Positions 1,201 through 8,606 of a stretch of DNA of 16,709 nt are shown here, one piece after another. The notes beneath the pieces are model-generated. The model searched no databases, was not told the origin of the DNA, and worked only from the letters and a program-made list of their open reading frames with translations. Numbering within the stretch: the stretch's first letter is position 1; each line of letters opens with the position of its first letter. Source of the DNA: a bacterium (GTDB lineage: Bacteria; JAMCPX01); NCBI GenBank assembly GCA_021789095.1, contig JAJYJX010000034.1:1-16709 (forward strand), read 5' to 3'. Made by a program: the position numbers and the translations under genes.

Positions 1201-2625
1201 ATGGCCAATTCTTTTGATGCTGTAATTATAGGTTCAGGCTTTGGCGGTGCAATACCTGCTTTAAGGCTCGCCCAGGCAAACAAAAAGGTACTCGTGCTCG
1301 AACAGGGCAGGGTCTACACCGAAAACGACTTCAAGCAGACATGGGACCTCAAATACCTGTCTAATATGATGAGCATCACAACATCCGACGATTATGCGGT
1401 GTTTTTCAGATCAGGCATGGTGCTCGGCGGAGGATCCGTAGTTTTTTCGGGTCTTATGAACAGGTCTCCTTCGGAGGTGTTCCAGTTTGTAGATTACAAC
1501 GGTTACAGGGTATGGCCTGATGCTGTCAACAGACAGGCACTCGACCCGTATTACGACATGGTTGAAAGCATGATGCAGGTGAGGCAGGTAACTTGGCAGG
1601 AAGTATCCAAAACTGGCGGCATGTTCGCAAAGATGCTTGACAATGCAGGCCTGACCTGTGACAGAGCTCGGTTCCCGTATGTCAATTGCAGGGAATGCGG
1701 GTTCTGCGAGGCAGGCTGTATATACGGTGCAAAACAGTCACTGATGCACAACTATATACCGCAGGCGCAGGCAGCAGGTGTGGAATTCAGGACAGAATGC
1801 AGGGCAATGCTGATCCAGCCGGTCTCTACAGGCTATACTGTGCAGTACACAGGCCCGGACGACAGCATGTCCTCGGTGCAGGGCACCATTGTAATACTTG
1901 CAGCAGGCGCTATATATTCACCGGAACTGCTTCTGCGGTCAAAACAATACCTTCCCCAGCTTTCTGATCAGGTCGGAAAGAACTTTAACAACAACGGCGG
2001 CTTGAGGTTTGGGCTTGAACTGCCTGAAGGTCTGCCGTCCATAGAGTGTTATAAAGGAAGGGACAGCGCAGCGGTAATGACCTATGCATTCTGGAAGGAT
2101 TACGGGATTACCATTGAAGCAGGCACAAATCCGGCCTCTATCTTTTCATTAAATGTCCACAGGCCGGGTTCATACGGCTGGGGGCTTGATTTCAAGCACT
2201 GGGCAAAATCGGTATATCCGTCGCGGTTCATAATAGCCAATATAATGGGACCTGTTACAGGCGAGGGTTATGTACACCTGAAAAATGATCTGCCCGCTGT
2301 TAATTTCCCTATGACAAAGAACCTCTCAGATTACATAAACAGGGTAATTGCCCCTATCGGTGCGTTTGCAAAAATAAACAATGCGATCCTGCTCCAGACA
2401 ATGCCTTCAGGCTATATGTACTCCATAGACCACATGCTTGGTACATGCAGGATCGGCGATGACCCTGCTTATTCACCTGCAGACCCGAGCGGGCAGCTGC
2501 GGGGTTACCCGGGGCTGTTTGTTTCGGACTCAAGCTCGATACCGTGCGGCACCGGTGTTAACCCGTCCACCACTATCGCAGCAAATGCGGAAAGGATAGC
2601 GGCCTCCATCGTAAATAACTGGTAA
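1201..2625 (+). CDS. GMC-family FAD-dependent oxidoreductase with ferredoxin-like Cys cluster (large subunit)
   Basis: A 474-residue flavoprotein. The N-terminal dinucleotide-binding motif is G11-S-G-F-G-G16, with E34 after the second strand (VLVLEQG) to bind the FAD ribose. The C-terminal GMC domain contains HMLGTCRIG (H411) and GTGVNPSTT (N454), the usual His/Asn active-site pair. A segment at 163-173 reads C-x2-C-x2-C-x3-C (C163, C166, C169, C173), the spacing of a ferredoxin [4Fe-4S] ligand set and typical of the cholesterol-oxidase-like GMC branch. It has no signal peptide, so export would depend on its partner. The next gene starts six bases after its stop codon. The likely role is oxidation of an alcohol or sterol-like substrate with electrons leaving through the Fe-S site to the cytochrome encoded downstream. 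The substrate cannot be read from the sequence. Confidence 0.88.
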   Translation: MANSFDAVIIGSGFGGAIPALRLAQANKKVLVLEQGRVYTENDFKQTWDLKYLSNMMSITTSDDYAVFFRSGMVLGGGSVVFSGLMNRSPSEVFQFVDYNGYRVWPDAVNRQALDPYYDMVESMMQVRQVTWQEVSKTGGMFAKMLDNAGLTCDRARFPYVNCRECGFCEAGCIYGAKQSLMHNYIPQAQAAGVEFRTECRAMLIQPVSTGYTVQYTGPDDSMSSVQGTIVILAAGAIYSPELLLRSKQYLPQLSDQVGKNFNNNGGLRFGLELPEGLPSIECYKGRDSAAVMTYAFWKDYGITIEAGTNPASIFSLNVHRPGSYGWGLDFKHWAKSVYPSRFIIANIMGPVTGEGYVHLKNDLPAVNFPMTKNLSDYINRVIAPIGAFAKINNAILLQTMPSGYMYSIDHMLGTCRIGDDPAYSPADPSGQLRGYPGLFVSDSSSIPCGTGVNPSTTIAANAERIAASIVNNW

Positions 2626-2631
2626 TATTTT

Positions 2632-3243
2632 ATGGACATTTCAAAACTTTTTGAAGACATTATTAAAAAGGACATAGACAGAAGGCAGTTTTTCAAATGG
2701 ATCGGCAGGATCTCCGTGCTTGCGGCAATGTTTGAACTGGTGGATCAGGTGAGCTGCGGATCTGTTCCTCAGACCGCGCAGCCGGCATCAACATGCACGC
2801 AACCGCAGACAGAGGATGAAAAGATAATCTATGCTATGTGCGATACAATCCTGCCCGGCATGTCCTCTGACCCAACCGGTGCACCGGGTGCTGTTGACGC
2901 ATGCACTATGGATGTTGTTTACGATAAATTCTACGGGATTATCCAGGTCATCTCTCCGGTCCTCTTGATCATCAATGCAGAAGCTAAAAACAATGAGGGC
3001 AGGAATTTTTATGAACTGAATCTTGATCAGCGGACAACGGTGCTGAAGAGCGTAGAATCAATGCTCGGCATAATCGATCAGGTTTACATGTTCATGAAGG
3101 GACCGTTTTATATCGGAATTATAAGCAGGCTCGGTCTTGATTATATGGGAGACCCGGGCCCGAACCTTGGCTATAGGGACCAGGACTTCAGCTTCTACAA
3201 ACCCATGTCACAGGAGATGACATCGGATGGGAACCTGCCGTAA
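2632..3243 (+). CDS. Tat-exported small subunit, gluconate 2-dehydrogenase subunit 3-like
   Basis: A 203-residue protein beginning six bases after the GMC gene. Residues 18-30 read DRRQFFKWIGRIS, a twin-arginine motif followed by a hydrophobic segment, which marks Tat export. The mature part contains AMCDTILPGMSSDPTGAPGAVDAC, close to the 'D-x-I-x-P ... P-G-A-x-x-A' signature of the gluconate 2-dehydrogenase subunit 3 family. In characterised three-subunit dehydrogenases this small subunit carries the signal peptide and takes the folded flavoprotein across the membrane. That role is inferred here because the GMC protein has no signal. The upstream Shine-Dalgarno is poor, so translational coupling to the preceding gene is likely. 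Sequence similarity outside the motif is weak, so the family call is moderately sure. Confidence 0.72.
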   Translation: MDISKLFEDIIKKDIDRRQFFKWIGRISVLAAMFELVDQVSCGSVPQTAQPASTCTQPQTEDEKIIYAMCDTILPGMSSDPTGAPGAVDACTMDVVYDKFYGIIQVISPVLLIINAEAKNNEGRNFYELNLDQRTTVLKSVESMLGIIDQVYMFMKGPFYIGIISRLGLDYMGDPGPNLGYRDQDFSFYKPMSQEMTSDGNLP

Positions 3244-3272
3244 ACCCATGGACACAGAAATTGTGATACCCC

Positions 3273-3288
3273 CCAAAAGCTCTTTTGG
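3273..3288. repeat. Perfect 16-bp palindrome after the small-subunit gene
   Basis: CCAAAAG-CT-CTTTTGG (3273-3288) lies 30 bases downstream of the subunit stop codon. It could form a short hairpin in the operon transcript but lacks a T-run, so it is not a typical intrinsic terminator. It directly precedes the inverted-repeat copy described at 3293-3326 and may be part of that element. Confidence 0.5.
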
Positions 3289-3292
3289 AAAG

Positions 3293-3326
3293 GAGCGAGG
3301 TTTGTGAGGTGAGTGAAAAACCTGCG
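3293..3326 (-). repeat. Diverged repeat, intergenic copy (inverted relative to 3444-3475)
   Basis: Read on the minus strand this segment has CGCAGG, 18 bases, then AACCTCGCTC. The same two blocks occur on the plus strand at 3444-3475 with 16 bases between them. The 10-base block is identical in both. This suggests two copies of one small mobile or repetitive sequence placed head to head on each side of the cytochrome start codon. Confidence 0.4.
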
Positions 3327-3405
3327 TCAAATATAGGTATTCTTCGAATATCGACAAAAATGATAAGACAAGATGCCTGCATATAAACTTACAGAGGACT
3401 TAAAG

Positions 3406-4416
3406 ATGGGTAATATAAAAAAGTTTAAGTATCTTAATCGGATCGCAGGGTTGAACGAACGAGCGAACCTCGCTCTTGGACTTTTTCAGATAAGAAAGTT
3501 TGCCCGCTCTTTTATAAACCCCGATAATGTATTCTTCTGGTTTATCCTGCCTTTCCTGCTTGTAACCGGCTGCCAGACACAGAAGACCGTCCAATCAAAT
3601 GCTGTAAGCTGCTATGACTGCCATGACACGTACCAGATCACAGAGGCGCGGTCGAATGAATCATCCGGAATCAAAGAATGGATGCAGGCAGGCGGTACAG
3701 GTCTGGTAATGATACCTGCATATAACCCCCCGCCTCTTTTTATGTATGAACTTGAATGGCCGGCAAGAGGCAGGCATATATTTGATCTGAACACAGGCGA
3801 CTGCGCACAATGCCATCCCCTCTACAACAATGTGGAGAACCACAGCAACAGCGAGTATCCTCCGCAGGCAAAAAGCCTGCTCTACATGAACGGCGTAAAC
3901 TGTGCATCAACCTGTCATACATGGCTTGAAAACGATATCATCAGCGCAGGGTTTTCATCCAGTACGGGTGATACACCGACATATACAGGTACGCTTGATC
4001 CGTACACGCTGCTTACCTCTGTACAGACAGCCCACACAAAAATCTTTCTGTACGGCTTCAGGATCTCACAGGATGATCCGGCACTGAACATAAGGGCATT
4101 AAACCCGGGATGCGGGAGCTGTCATAACTGGGACGGTCCAAGGCACGGTCATATTGCACAATGCACGGACTGCCATAACTTTGATCCGTCAAACAGCTCG
4201 AGTCTTCACCAGAGCCACATAGCTGTCATAAGTGCTGCACAATCACAGATCGATCCTTCAGATTCAGGCCTGCCTGCCTGTGCATACTGCCATGGTTTTT
4301 CAGACACAACAACCAGCCATACACTGTCGAACCCGGTGTGCTATAATTGCCATCTCAGTGGACACCAGCCGGTTGGCGCTGACGGCATGCCCCAGTTCTG
4401 GGATACAAAAAAGTAA
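3406..4416 (+). CDS. Seven-heme c-type cytochrome lipoprotein
   Basis: A 336-residue protein when started at ATG 3406, chosen because AGAGGA lies seven bases upstream; an ATG at 3373 in the same frame has no comparable site. A hydrophobic segment (about 43-54) ends in the lipobox LVTGC (Cys56), so it is probably a lipid-anchored envelope protein. Heme c motifs are CYDCH (69), CAQCH (133), CASTCH (166), CGSCH (236), CTDCH (253), CAYCH (292) and CYNCH (312). Six are CxxCH and one is CxxxCH. It follows the GMC and Tat-subunit genes in the same direction, replacing the three-heme cytochrome of classical gluconate dehydrogenases, and probably accepts their electrons. Odd feature: the segment before the signal core is about 43 residues, much longer than usual, and part of it is encoded by a repeat also found upstream. 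No family name is assigned. Confidence 0.85.
   Translation: MGNIKKFKYLNRIAGLNERANLALGLFQIRKFARSFINPDNVFFWFILPFLLVTGCQTQKTVQSNAVSCYDCHDTYQITEARSNESSGIKEWMQAGGTGLVMIPAYNPPPLFMYELEWPARGRHIFDLNTGDCAQCHPLYNNVENHSNSEYPPQAKSLLYMNGVNCASTCHTWLENDIISAGFSSSTGDTPTYTGTLDPYTLLTSVQTAHTKIFLYGFRISQDDPALNIRALNPGCGSCHNWDGPRHGHIAQCTDCHNFDPSNSSSLHQSHIAVISAAQSQIDPSDSGLPACAYCHGFSDTTTSHTLSNPVCYNCHLSGHQPVGADGMPQFWDTKK
3444..3475 (+). repeat. Diverged repeat, copy inside the cytochrome reading frame
   Basis: CGCAGG (3444-3449) and AACCTCGCTC (3466-3475) repeat, in inverted orientation, the blocks at 3293-3326. GAGCG (3461-3465) and CGCTC (3471-3475) can also pair as a local hairpin. The copy is read in frame and encodes part of the unusually long N-terminal region before the lipoprotein signal core. 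Confidence 0.4.
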
Positions 4417-4422
4417 AACACC

Positions 4423-5346
4423 TCACCACTGCTGCACAAAATAGCTTGATTCCCTGCACGCCTGATCGAAGTTGATCTTCATGGAATAAACCTTGTCAAA
4501 TCCGAATATCCCTGTTCTGTCCCATTTCAGAACATACAAAGCATAGCGACATTCAGGTGAGATGTTATCGGGCTTCCCGAGTATTGCAAGTACACCCTGC
4601 TTGGACAGGCCGTCGAATGTTTTGTTATGAACAATGTCCTTGTAAAACATATACCGCTTGATCATCTGGGTTTCACGCCATGCATCGGATGAAAATGATG
4701 CATTGGGCCAATCCTTTATCGATGGGGTGCCGAGCGGTATGATCGCATAGGCATACACGCTCATCACAACAATTGCCGCGACAAGTGTTGCTGCAGCCGC
4801 TATTGCGGCCTTCTTGTATGCCCTGTGCTCAAAAGTCCTCTTCCATAATTGCAGGGACAAATCAGACACTCTGCCAGAAACCCATGCAGCAATTACGATC
4901 AGGATTATAAAGTATATAACTGCCAGGATCTTATACCGTAAAGGAAATCCGAACATTACAAAAGGTGATACCAGGGTCACAAACCGGTACGGCAGACCTA
5001 TAAAAGCAGCCCAGAAATAATACAATGCAACACCAAGCCGGGGCTTAAAAAAATCGTACCGTGTCCTGAGCATGCTGCTGAAAAAGCTGAACATGATAAA
5101 CCCCGAAAAATACGGCACTGCCGACACTATAAGATCGTCTTTTATCCTCATATGGAAGAATATGAATGAGTAGTTTTTCATTATCAGGTTTTCTATCTCA
5201 TCCATGGATAGATGTCTGTTTAAATAGGCCAGGAGATACAGCTTGGAGTATATAGGTAGAAGACAGTAATAAATGAAAAAATACAACACAAAAGCCGTTA
5301 ACACTGAACCCGCCAAAAACTTCATAGAGTCCTTTTTGTAATCCAT
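4423..5346 (-). CDS. Multispanning membrane protein with BamE/SmpA-like C-terminal domain, function unknown
   Basis: A 307-residue protein with about five hydrophobic segments: near residues 9-30, 74-92, 104-134 (possibly two), 136-155 and 183-207. The C-terminal 95 residues look soluble and contain RYMFYKDIVHN...FDGLSKQGVLAILGKPDNIS, which resembles the 'R..M..DL...L.GLSK..V..LLG.P' pattern of BamE/SmpA-like small domains. I do not recognise the whole protein. It converges on the cytochrome gene with six bases between the stop codons, so the two ends may share a termination zone. The ATG at 5346 is preceded by AGGGGGAAG at suitable spacing. Function and any link to the redox genes are unknown. 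Confidence 0.7.
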   Translation of the reverse strand: MDYKKDSMKFLAGSVLTAFVLYFFIYYCLLPIYSKLYLLAYLNRHLSMDEIENLIMKNYSFIFFHMRIKDDLIVSAVPYFSGFIMFSFFSSMLRTRYDFFKPRLGVALYYFWAAFIGLPYRFVTLVSPFVMFGFPLRYKILAVIYFIILIVIAAWVSGRVSDLSLQLWKRTFEHRAYKKAAIAAAATLVAAIVVMSVYAYAIIPLGTPSIKDWPNASFSSDAWRETQMIKRYMFYKDIVHNKTFDGLSKQGVLAILGKPDNISPECRYALYVLKWDRTGIFGFDKVYSMKINFDQACRESSYFVQQW

Positions 5347-7839: not shown

Positions 7840-8199
7840 CTATATATCTATAGTTCTTGGTTCTGTAAGAAGTTTAACCCCGTCTATTATTTGGTCTATT
7901 TTTGCAATCGGCAGAGTGCCTGCCTTCTCAACAAGGAAAGCCTTATCGACCGTTATTATCTGGGATATATTTACCACACTGTCTTTGGGCAATCCCCCTT
8001 CACCTTTCTGTAAAAAGACATTGCCGGGAGCATTTGCAAGGTTTAGATTGGATGTTACGGTACAGACAACCACGGTGCTGATCCTGCTTTTGTTGAAAAC
8101 ATTGTTTTGTATGATGACAAAGGGGCGTCTGTACCCGGGCTCCGAGCCTTCAGGAGCGTCTAAATCAATCCAGAAGATGTCCCCCTGCTTTATGTCCAC
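7840..8199 (-). CDS. MazF/PemK-family endoribonuclease toxin
   Basis: A 119-residue protein of the normal family length. It begins MDIKQGDIFWIDLDAPEGSE followed by GYRRPFVIIQNN, the hallmark opening of MazF/PemK/ChpK toxins, with VVVCTVTSNL (about 43-52) forming the second conserved strand around the active site. Family members cleave mRNA at short sequence motifs and slow growth when freed from their antitoxin. The start codon is GTG at 8199, which follows directly after the TAA of the antitoxin gene; AGAG nine bases upstream can serve as ribosome-binding site. The tight junction implies coupled translation with the antitoxin made first. No inactivating change is seen. Confidence 0.93.
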   Translation of the reverse strand: MDIKQGDIFWIDLDAPEGSEPGYRRPFVIIQNNVFNKSRISTVVVCTVTSNLNLANAPGNVFLQKGEGGLPKDSVVNISQIITVDKAFLVEKAGTLPIAKIDQIIDGVKLLTEPRTIDI

Positions 8200-8451
8200 T
8201 TAATATCGCTCTTTCTTTAACACATGGACGGCAAGGTGTTTAAGACTTTTCTTTCTTGTCGCAGCGTCCCGGTCTGTTTCGGTGTCTGCATAGGCTTTGT
8301 TGAGCGCATCAAGAAGCTCTCCGGAGGCCTTCTTTTCGAGGAGTTCTTTGACCGCTCTGACAAACACCTCACTGCGCGAGTAATGGTGCTGTTTTGCAAA
8401 TGCATCCACTTCCTTGAATATGCTTTCCGGTACCGATATGGCTGTTTTCAT
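8200..8451 (-). CDS. Ribbon-helix-helix antitoxin of the MazF partner
   Basis: From ATG 8451 the protein has 83 residues and opens MKTAISVPESIFKEVDAFAK, a typical ribbon-helix-helix start in which the first strand (TAISVP) binds the DNA groove and YSRSEVFVRAVKELLEK forms the second helix. The C-terminal half, rich in charge (ALNKAYADTETDRDAA), would wrap the toxin. The reading frame extends upstream to a TTG at 8502, but that would cover the promoter and lacks similarity. The gene has no Shine-Dalgarno; the predicted transcription start coincides with the ATG, so translation may be leaderless. It precedes the toxin gene with no gap. Family members repress their own operon. Confidence 0.9.
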   Translation of the reverse strand: MKTAISVPESIFKEVDAFAKQHHYSRSEVFVRAVKELLEKKASGELLDALNKAYADTETDRDAATRKKSLKHLAVHVLKKERY

Positions 8452-8457
8452 ACCATA

Positions 8458-8486
8458 AATATAACCTATAGTAATACCTATGTCAA
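8458..8486 (-). promoter_or_regulatory. Consensus promoter of the toxin-antitoxin operon
   Basis: On the minus strand TTGACA (8486-8481, full match) is followed after exactly 17 bases by TATATT (8463-8458, five of six). Start of transcription seven bases later falls at about 8451, the A of the antitoxin ATG. This is the best-matching promoter in the window and supports the ATG at 8451 as the true start. Confidence 0.7.
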
Positions 8487-8493
8487 TACCTAT
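8461..8493 (-). promoter_or_regulatory. Three tandem 12-bp operator repeats overlapping the promoter
   Basis: On the minus strand the 12-mers ATAGGTATTGAC, ATAGGTATTACT and ATAGGTTATATT follow each other without gaps (CCTAT on the plus strand at 8465, 8477 and 8489). Regular tandem sites about one helical turn apart are typical operators for ribbon-helix-helix repressors. The first repeat contributes to the -35 and the third to the -10, so bound antitoxin would block RNA polymerase. Confidence 0.6.
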
Positions 8494-8606
8494 TGTAGTC
8501 AAAACCCACCCAATACTATTTTATATTCTTTTTTTATATTTCCTCCTTTAATTTTTTTAATTATCATTGCGTCAATTAGTGTTCCTTCTATCTGCATTTT
8601 TCTATT

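Follow-up and report, generated by a model that had tools for sequence, protein, structure and literature searches.

A GMC flavoprotein, a Tat-carrier subunit and a putative heptaheme lipoprotein encoded as a conserved cassette in uncultured bacteria

The 16,709-nucleotide stretch of bacterial DNA analyzed here (the window; contig JAJYJX010000034.1, assembly GCA_021789095.1, GTDB lineage JAMCPX01; G+C content, 46%) encodes, in tandem on the plus strand, a GMC flavoprotein, a small subunit starting six bases 3' of the flavoprotein stop codon, and a multiheme cytochrome. The three products resemble an exported dehydrogenase of the alcohol or sugar type and probably form one periplasmic, lipid-anchored complex that works like the flavin adenine dinucleotide (FAD)-dependent fructose, gluconate and glucose dehydrogenases, with a heptaheme lipoprotein replacing their triheme subunit. 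The gene order, its conservation, the family of both dehydrogenase subunits, the predicted GMC fold, the cysteine spacing and the number of heme motifs were observed; complex formation, cluster type, electron path and location we infer. A preliminary description of this DNA had likewise noted a resemblance to gluconate/sorbitol-type dehydrogenases, the triheme subunit being replaced by a lipoprotein with seven hemes, and this likeness gains support from the conserved unit, the fold and the Pfam family of the small subunit (PF13618). The features of the cassette are as follows (all on the plus strand, window positions).

1201 to 2625, plus: GMC flavoprotein, catalytic subunit, 474 amino acids, without a signal peptide of its own (Pfam, AlphaFold model, fold matches)
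1231 to 1248, plus: FAD dinucleotide-binding motif GSGFGG, residues 11 to 16 (invariant in 48 homologues)
1687 to 1719, plus: cysteine cluster C163-x2-C166-x2-C169-x3-C173, predicted Fe-S site (conservation and spacing as in the Burkholderia cepacia FAD-dependent glucose dehydrogenase, BcGDH)
2431 to 2433, plus: catalytic His411, at the position of cholesterol oxidase His447 (invariant in 48 sequences; cholesterol oxidase alignment)
2560 to 2562, plus: catalytic Asn454, at the position of cholesterol oxidase Asn485 (invariant in 48 sequences; cholesterol oxidase alignment)
2632 to 3243, plus: small "hitch-hiker" subunit with a twin-arginine translocation (Tat) signal, Gluconate_2-dh3-like, 203 amino acids (PF13618 in homologues; invariant RR)
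2755 to 2757, plus: Cys42 of the small subunit, candidate lipid-anchor cysteine (Cys-Gly invariant in 11 homologues)
3266 to 3486 (about 3255 to 3500 with its ends), plus: dispersed repeat resembling a miniature inverted-repeat transposable element, between small subunit and cytochrome (genome copies)
3373 to 4416, plus: multiheme cytochrome open reading frame (ORF) as listed, 347 amino acids
3412 to 4416, plus: heptaheme lipoprotein from the likelier start, 334 amino acids (AGAGGA before ATG)
3562 to 3573, plus: lipobox VTGC with Cys67 (sequence; equivalent Cys in most homologues)
3610 to 3624, plus: heme motif 1, CYDCH (homologue alignment, as for motifs 2 and 4 to 7)
3802 to 3816, plus: heme motif 2, CAQCH
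3901 to 3918, plus: heme motif 3, atypical CX3CH, CASTCH (CX3CH in nine aligned homologues)
4111 to 4125, plus: heme motif 4, CGSCH
4162 to 4176, plus: heme motif 5, CTDCH
4279 to 4293, plus: heme motif 6, CAYCH
4339 to 4353, plus: heme motif 7, CYNCH, followed by invariant His331

The cassette is conserved as a unit. Ninety-eight relatives were searched with the GMC protein and the neighborhoods of the matches read, a further scan of the genome collection was made, and 193 genomes were searched with a profile of the cytochrome. Nine of the searched genomes carry the whole cassette (G000, G001, G002, G003, G006, G007, G022, G158 and G193), one of which, G022, belongs to another family, and so do two metagenome-assembled genomes (MAGs), L055 (Proteobacteria; its title names Lake Pavin sediment) and L056 (Deltaproteobacteria; its title names groundwater). 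In G008 and G005, contig ends truncate it. The preliminary description had suggested such a joint search, allowing that cytochrome and flavoprotein might never co-occur elsewhere; they clearly do, and the carriers span several phyla of uncultured bacteria. The cytochrome profile matched in 10 of the 193 genomes, with G158 new among these and G193 added later. A tree built from 24 GMC sequences places every cassette member in a single clade (support, 100/100), and distant GMC relatives (≤37% identity in the scan) had no multiheme gene in the stretch read. The cytochrome might instead be an independent periplasmic carrier that is merely cotranscribed, the GMC/small-subunit pair using another acceptor. 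We regard this as decidedly unlikely: although G005 and G002 carry GMC genes from this clade that have no cytochrome gene beside them, no cytochrome homologue was found apart from a GMC/small-subunit pair in the genomes searched, where all lay in the cassette or at a contig end, and the association holds across phyla. The neighbors of the cassette vary by lineage (acyltransferase, TauE-type exporter, FGGY kinase, FAD glycerol-phosphate-oxidase-like and glycoside hydrolase-like proteins), and no substrate is therefore proposed from context.

The catalytic subunit matches GMC_oxred_N (E value of 4e-21) and GMC_oxred_C (1.4e-11), and its AlphaFold model (mean predicted local distance difference test [pLDDT], 93.1) is closest among solved folds to cholesterol oxidase (Z of 43), fructose dehydrogenase (Z of 40) and the alpha subunit of BcGDH (Z of 37). 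Identity to cholesterol oxidase is 24%, and the protein scored 107.9 bits against the cholesterol oxidase NCBIfam equivalog, whose cutoff is 850. The GSGFGG motif, His411 and Asn454 are unchanged across 48 GMC sequences. The C-x2-C-x2-C-x3-C cluster of the preliminary description is confirmed, C163, C166, C169 and C173 being invariant in ten close homologues. In BcGDH, the ligands of the 3Fe-4S cluster are Cys212, Cys218 and Cys222 (PMC6719666). The spacing of C163-x5-C169-x3-C173 is identical to that of these ligands, with C166 as one extra cysteine in between; from this spacing we infer a surface Fe-S relay at the place of the BcGDH cluster, which is probably of the 4Fe-4S type because of the fourth cysteine. 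A zinc-binding or structural role for the four cysteines, in an oxidase-like enzyme, is very improbable. Cholesterol oxidase is indeed the closest solved fold, and the cysteine stretch gave a subthreshold zinc-ribbon match (PF09855, E value of 4e-4), but the spacing is that of experimentally shown 3Fe-4S ligands in BcGDH, and the GMC gene has genes for a PF13618 small subunit and a cytochrome alongside it. In BcGDH, Cys213, beside the ligand Cys212, is disulfide bonded to Cys152 of the small subunit, a bond that its authors found dispensable for complex formation (PMC6719666). The residue beside C163 is Arg, Leu or Val rather than Cys, and the GMC protein and small subunit are presumably not joined by an intersubunit disulfide.

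The twin-arginine signal reported for the small subunit is borne out by its N terminus (..DRRQFF..), in which R17 and R18 are invariant in 11 homologues. The window protein itself matches PF13618 weakly (E value of 2.9e-4, just short of the cutoff), while all 11 homologues match it (best E value of 2.1e-8); judged by these profile matches, it is a divergent Gluconate_2-dh3 protein. Cys42 is the sole invariant cysteine in these homologues and lies near the N terminus, directly behind the Tat hydrophobic stretch. Its context is lipobox-like in L050 (LAGC), L055 (LPAC) and L051 (LEGC) but not in the window (QVSC). The Cys-Gly pair and the lipoboxes of homologues suggest that the small subunit may be lipid anchored too. 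A profile search of the small subunit against solved structures returned nothing significant.

The third gene had been described as encoding a lipoprotein with seven heme c motifs; the seven sites and the lipobox stand, with the correction that six are CXXCH and one is CX3CH. Among 20,000 shuffles of the ORF, the maximum was two CXXCH motifs, compared with the six observed. Motif 3 is CX3CH in 9 of 9 aligned homologues and is therefore an atypical site that has been kept, not a decayed one; published surveys score CX3CH as a heme site. The inner-membrane heptaheme cytochrome ImcH of Geobacter likewise has six CX2CH motifs and one atypical CX3CH (PMC6295460). ImcH, however, has three transmembrane segments with the CX3CH beside them, whereas the cassette cytochrome is a lipoprotein without such helices, in which CX3CH is the third motif. 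The signal peptide with the VTGC lipobox is its only hydrophobic stretch, and the NapC/NrfH domain (PF03264) had no match in it. Pfam gave weak class III/c7-type heme matches (PF14522 and PF14537), and sequence and profile searches of solved structures, triheme subunits included, returned nothing significant. Five histidines outside the motifs (H135, H157, H221, H258 and H331) are invariant in the nine aligned homologues and could serve as distal heme ligands. In the homologue of G003 (L050, positions 2959 to 3798), motif 1 is degenerate (CYCH instead of CXXCH), and this protein may hold six hemes.

The cytochrome had been placed at 3373 to 4416; the ORF is present, but ATG 3373 lies inside a dispersed repeat. 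The first ∼40 residues of the ORF have numerous matches elsewhere in the genome's own sequence and are translated from this repeat of ∼220 bp, which has at least 44 matches at an E value of ≤1e-5 in the 2.15-Mb assembly and whose ends, read by eye, are inverted and AGCGAGGTT-like. Relatives lack the repeat at this spot, their cytochrome gene lying directly behind or overlapping the small-subunit gene, and the insertion therefore happened in the lineage of the window. On inspection, the reading frame shows no ATG, GTG or TTG codon downstream of the repeat and ahead of the lipobox; translation must therefore begin within the repeat, for which ATG 3412, preceded by AGAGGA, is the most likely site. 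From about residue 43 on, the cytochrome is native, lipobox and all hemes included. The repeat supplies the start codon, a Shine-Dalgarno-like sequence and the N-terminal part of the lipoprotein signal peptide. In this bacterial operon, a repeat has thus contributed the N terminus of a protein.

The closest known systems are the FAD dehydrogenase complexes, for which we compared the B. cepacia FAD-dependent glucose dehydrogenase, the Gluconobacter fructose dehydrogenase, and the gluconate, 2-ketogluconate and sorbitol dehydrogenases. The cassette has in common with them a GMC catalytic subunit with the FAD-binding motif and catalytic His, a Tat-carrying PF13618-type small subunit, a c-type cytochrome gene, the Cys-x5-Cys-x3-Cys spacing and the fold of the catalytic subunit (Z of 37 to 40). 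It differs in having seven heme motifs (one of them CX3CH) instead of three CXXCH, a cytochrome with class III-like Pfam matches and a lipobox, and a fourth cluster cysteine, and in lacking the cysteines of the alpha-gamma disulfide. The cassette most likely works like these complexes but is not counted among them, since another cytochrome takes the place of the missing triheme subunit. Class I cholesterol oxidase (Streptomyces/Brevibacterium) shares the fold and the positions of the catalytic His and Asn but is a single-subunit oxidase, unlike the cassette with its cysteine cluster, small subunit and cytochrome. The preliminary description had suggested that the combination may be undescribed, and the literature searched held no description of a GMC protein with this small subunit and a heptaheme cytochrome; subscription papers were outside this coverage, and novelty is thus unproven. 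A stronger claim would make the cassette a separate class of periplasmic dehydrogenase complexes: the GMC protein, its four cysteines holding a 4Fe-4S relay, would connect directly to the lipid-anchored heptaheme protein and through it to a network of periplasmic multihemes, so that electrons avoid the quinone pool. This claim seems doubtful.

In the proposed mechanism, the GMC subunit would fold and take up FAD while still in the cytoplasm and would then be exported, already folded, by means of the small subunit's Tat signal. An alcohol-type substrate would be oxidized at the FAD with the help of His411 and Asn454. Electrons would pass from FAD to an Fe-S cluster at C163, C166, C169 and C173, from there to the heptaheme lipoprotein, standing in for the triheme subunit, and on to other periplasmic or membrane cytochromes.

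The acceptor was considered against the gene content of the host family, represented by nine genomes. dsrA was above the cutoff in 7 of the 9, as were genes of the heme-copper oxidase superfamily, although the shorter matches could be fragments or resemble nitric oxide reductase. TatC was found in eight genomes and NapC/NrfH-domain multihemes in all nine, while an MtrB/PioB porin was found in none (Geobacter-type porin-cytochrome systems were not searched for). This gene set fits dissimilatory sulfur metabolism with a multiheme network, but does not show a strict anaerobe and contains no sign of an MtrCAB-type surface conduit. On this gene content, neither the "anaerobe" of the preliminary description nor its quinone-independent or extracellular acceptor is supported. 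In G000, NapC/NrfH matches lie on contig C153 (7781 to 7939 and 12338 to 12505) in two ORFs of 680 and 673 amino acids, on opposite strands and ∼4.5 kb apart; a similar pair occurs in G001, G005 and G006.

As in the triheme enzymes, electrons from the complex may reach the quinone pool through a membrane cytochrome, whether of the NapC/NrfH type or another, in which case the seven hemes would do no more than lengthen the wire. This alternative, which differs from the proposed complex in the acceptor only, is a substantial possibility, if short of probable: the enzymes of this kind already known are given as ubiquinone reductases in PMC9171043, and it agrees with the occurrence of NapC/NrfH-domain proteins throughout the family and of MtrB-type porins nowhere in it, but the cassette includes no membrane partner and its cytochrome has no transmembrane helix beyond the signal. 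Extracellular electron transfer, in which the heptaheme protein passes electrons to the cell surface, appears unlikely. The partner is a multiheme lipoprotein without Asp at position +2 (CQT), which under the Escherichia coli Lol rule would suit outer-membrane sorting; yet the family has no MtrB/PioB homologue, with the limit on porin searches given above, and none of the cassettes examined has another multiheme gene beside it.

Several observations weigh against a single three-subunit complex of the proposed kind. In the window, the repeat comes between the cytochrome gene and the pair encoding the GMC protein and small subunit. The cysteine pattern C163/C166/C169/C173 is common to most of the wider GMC group, without a multiheme gene nearby, and therefore does not by itself predict a cytochrome partner. 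A three-member paralogue branch inside the cassette clade (G002 and G005) has no adjacent cytochrome, which is most simply explained by one loss. Cysteines for a BcGDH-type alpha-gamma disulfide are not conserved in the homologue alignments of the cassette proteins. Finally, the structure prediction for the cytochrome, from an alignment of only five sequences, reached a pLDDT of 34.

Three-subunit FAD dehydrogenases are used in biosensors, where the triheme subunit passes electrons straight to electrodes. If the proposed complex is real, unrelated cytochromes can be joined to the catalytic and Tat-carrier modules, and the cassette would offer a test case for the cofactor of the relay (3Fe-4S versus 4Fe-4S) and possibly a new direct-electron-transfer enzyme. 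It also provides a functional hypothesis for uncultured lineages known from MAGs only, with lake-sediment and groundwater ones among them by their record titles.

The cytochrome-less paralogues are the GMC genes L047 (5604 to 7046) and L048 (6734 to 8164) and L049 (2215 to 3705), in G005 and G002, which are 67 to 69% identical; a small subunit lies beside two of them, and the ORF listing has none behind the L048 copy. An apparent 606-amino-acid fusion in L056 was rejected as an artifact, the small subunit lying in another frame with the cytochrome after it. A TPR-type secreted protein is encoded 3' of the cytochrome in G007, G002, G005 and G008 (L046, 4272 to 5060; L042, 9694 to 10509; L144, 7861 to 8826; L145, 5282 to 6040) but not in the window. 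A scan for promoters and terminators gave counts near chance. Adjoining the 3' end of the cassette, on the minus strand (4423 to 5346), is a gene whose hydrophobic product, probably a membrane protein, matched nothing in Pfam or NCBIfam. Farther along, also on the minus strand (7840 to 8502), lies a toxin-antitoxin-like pair consisting of a MazF-like protein (phrog_1936, E value of 1.2e-19) and a short regulator-like ORF upstream of it.

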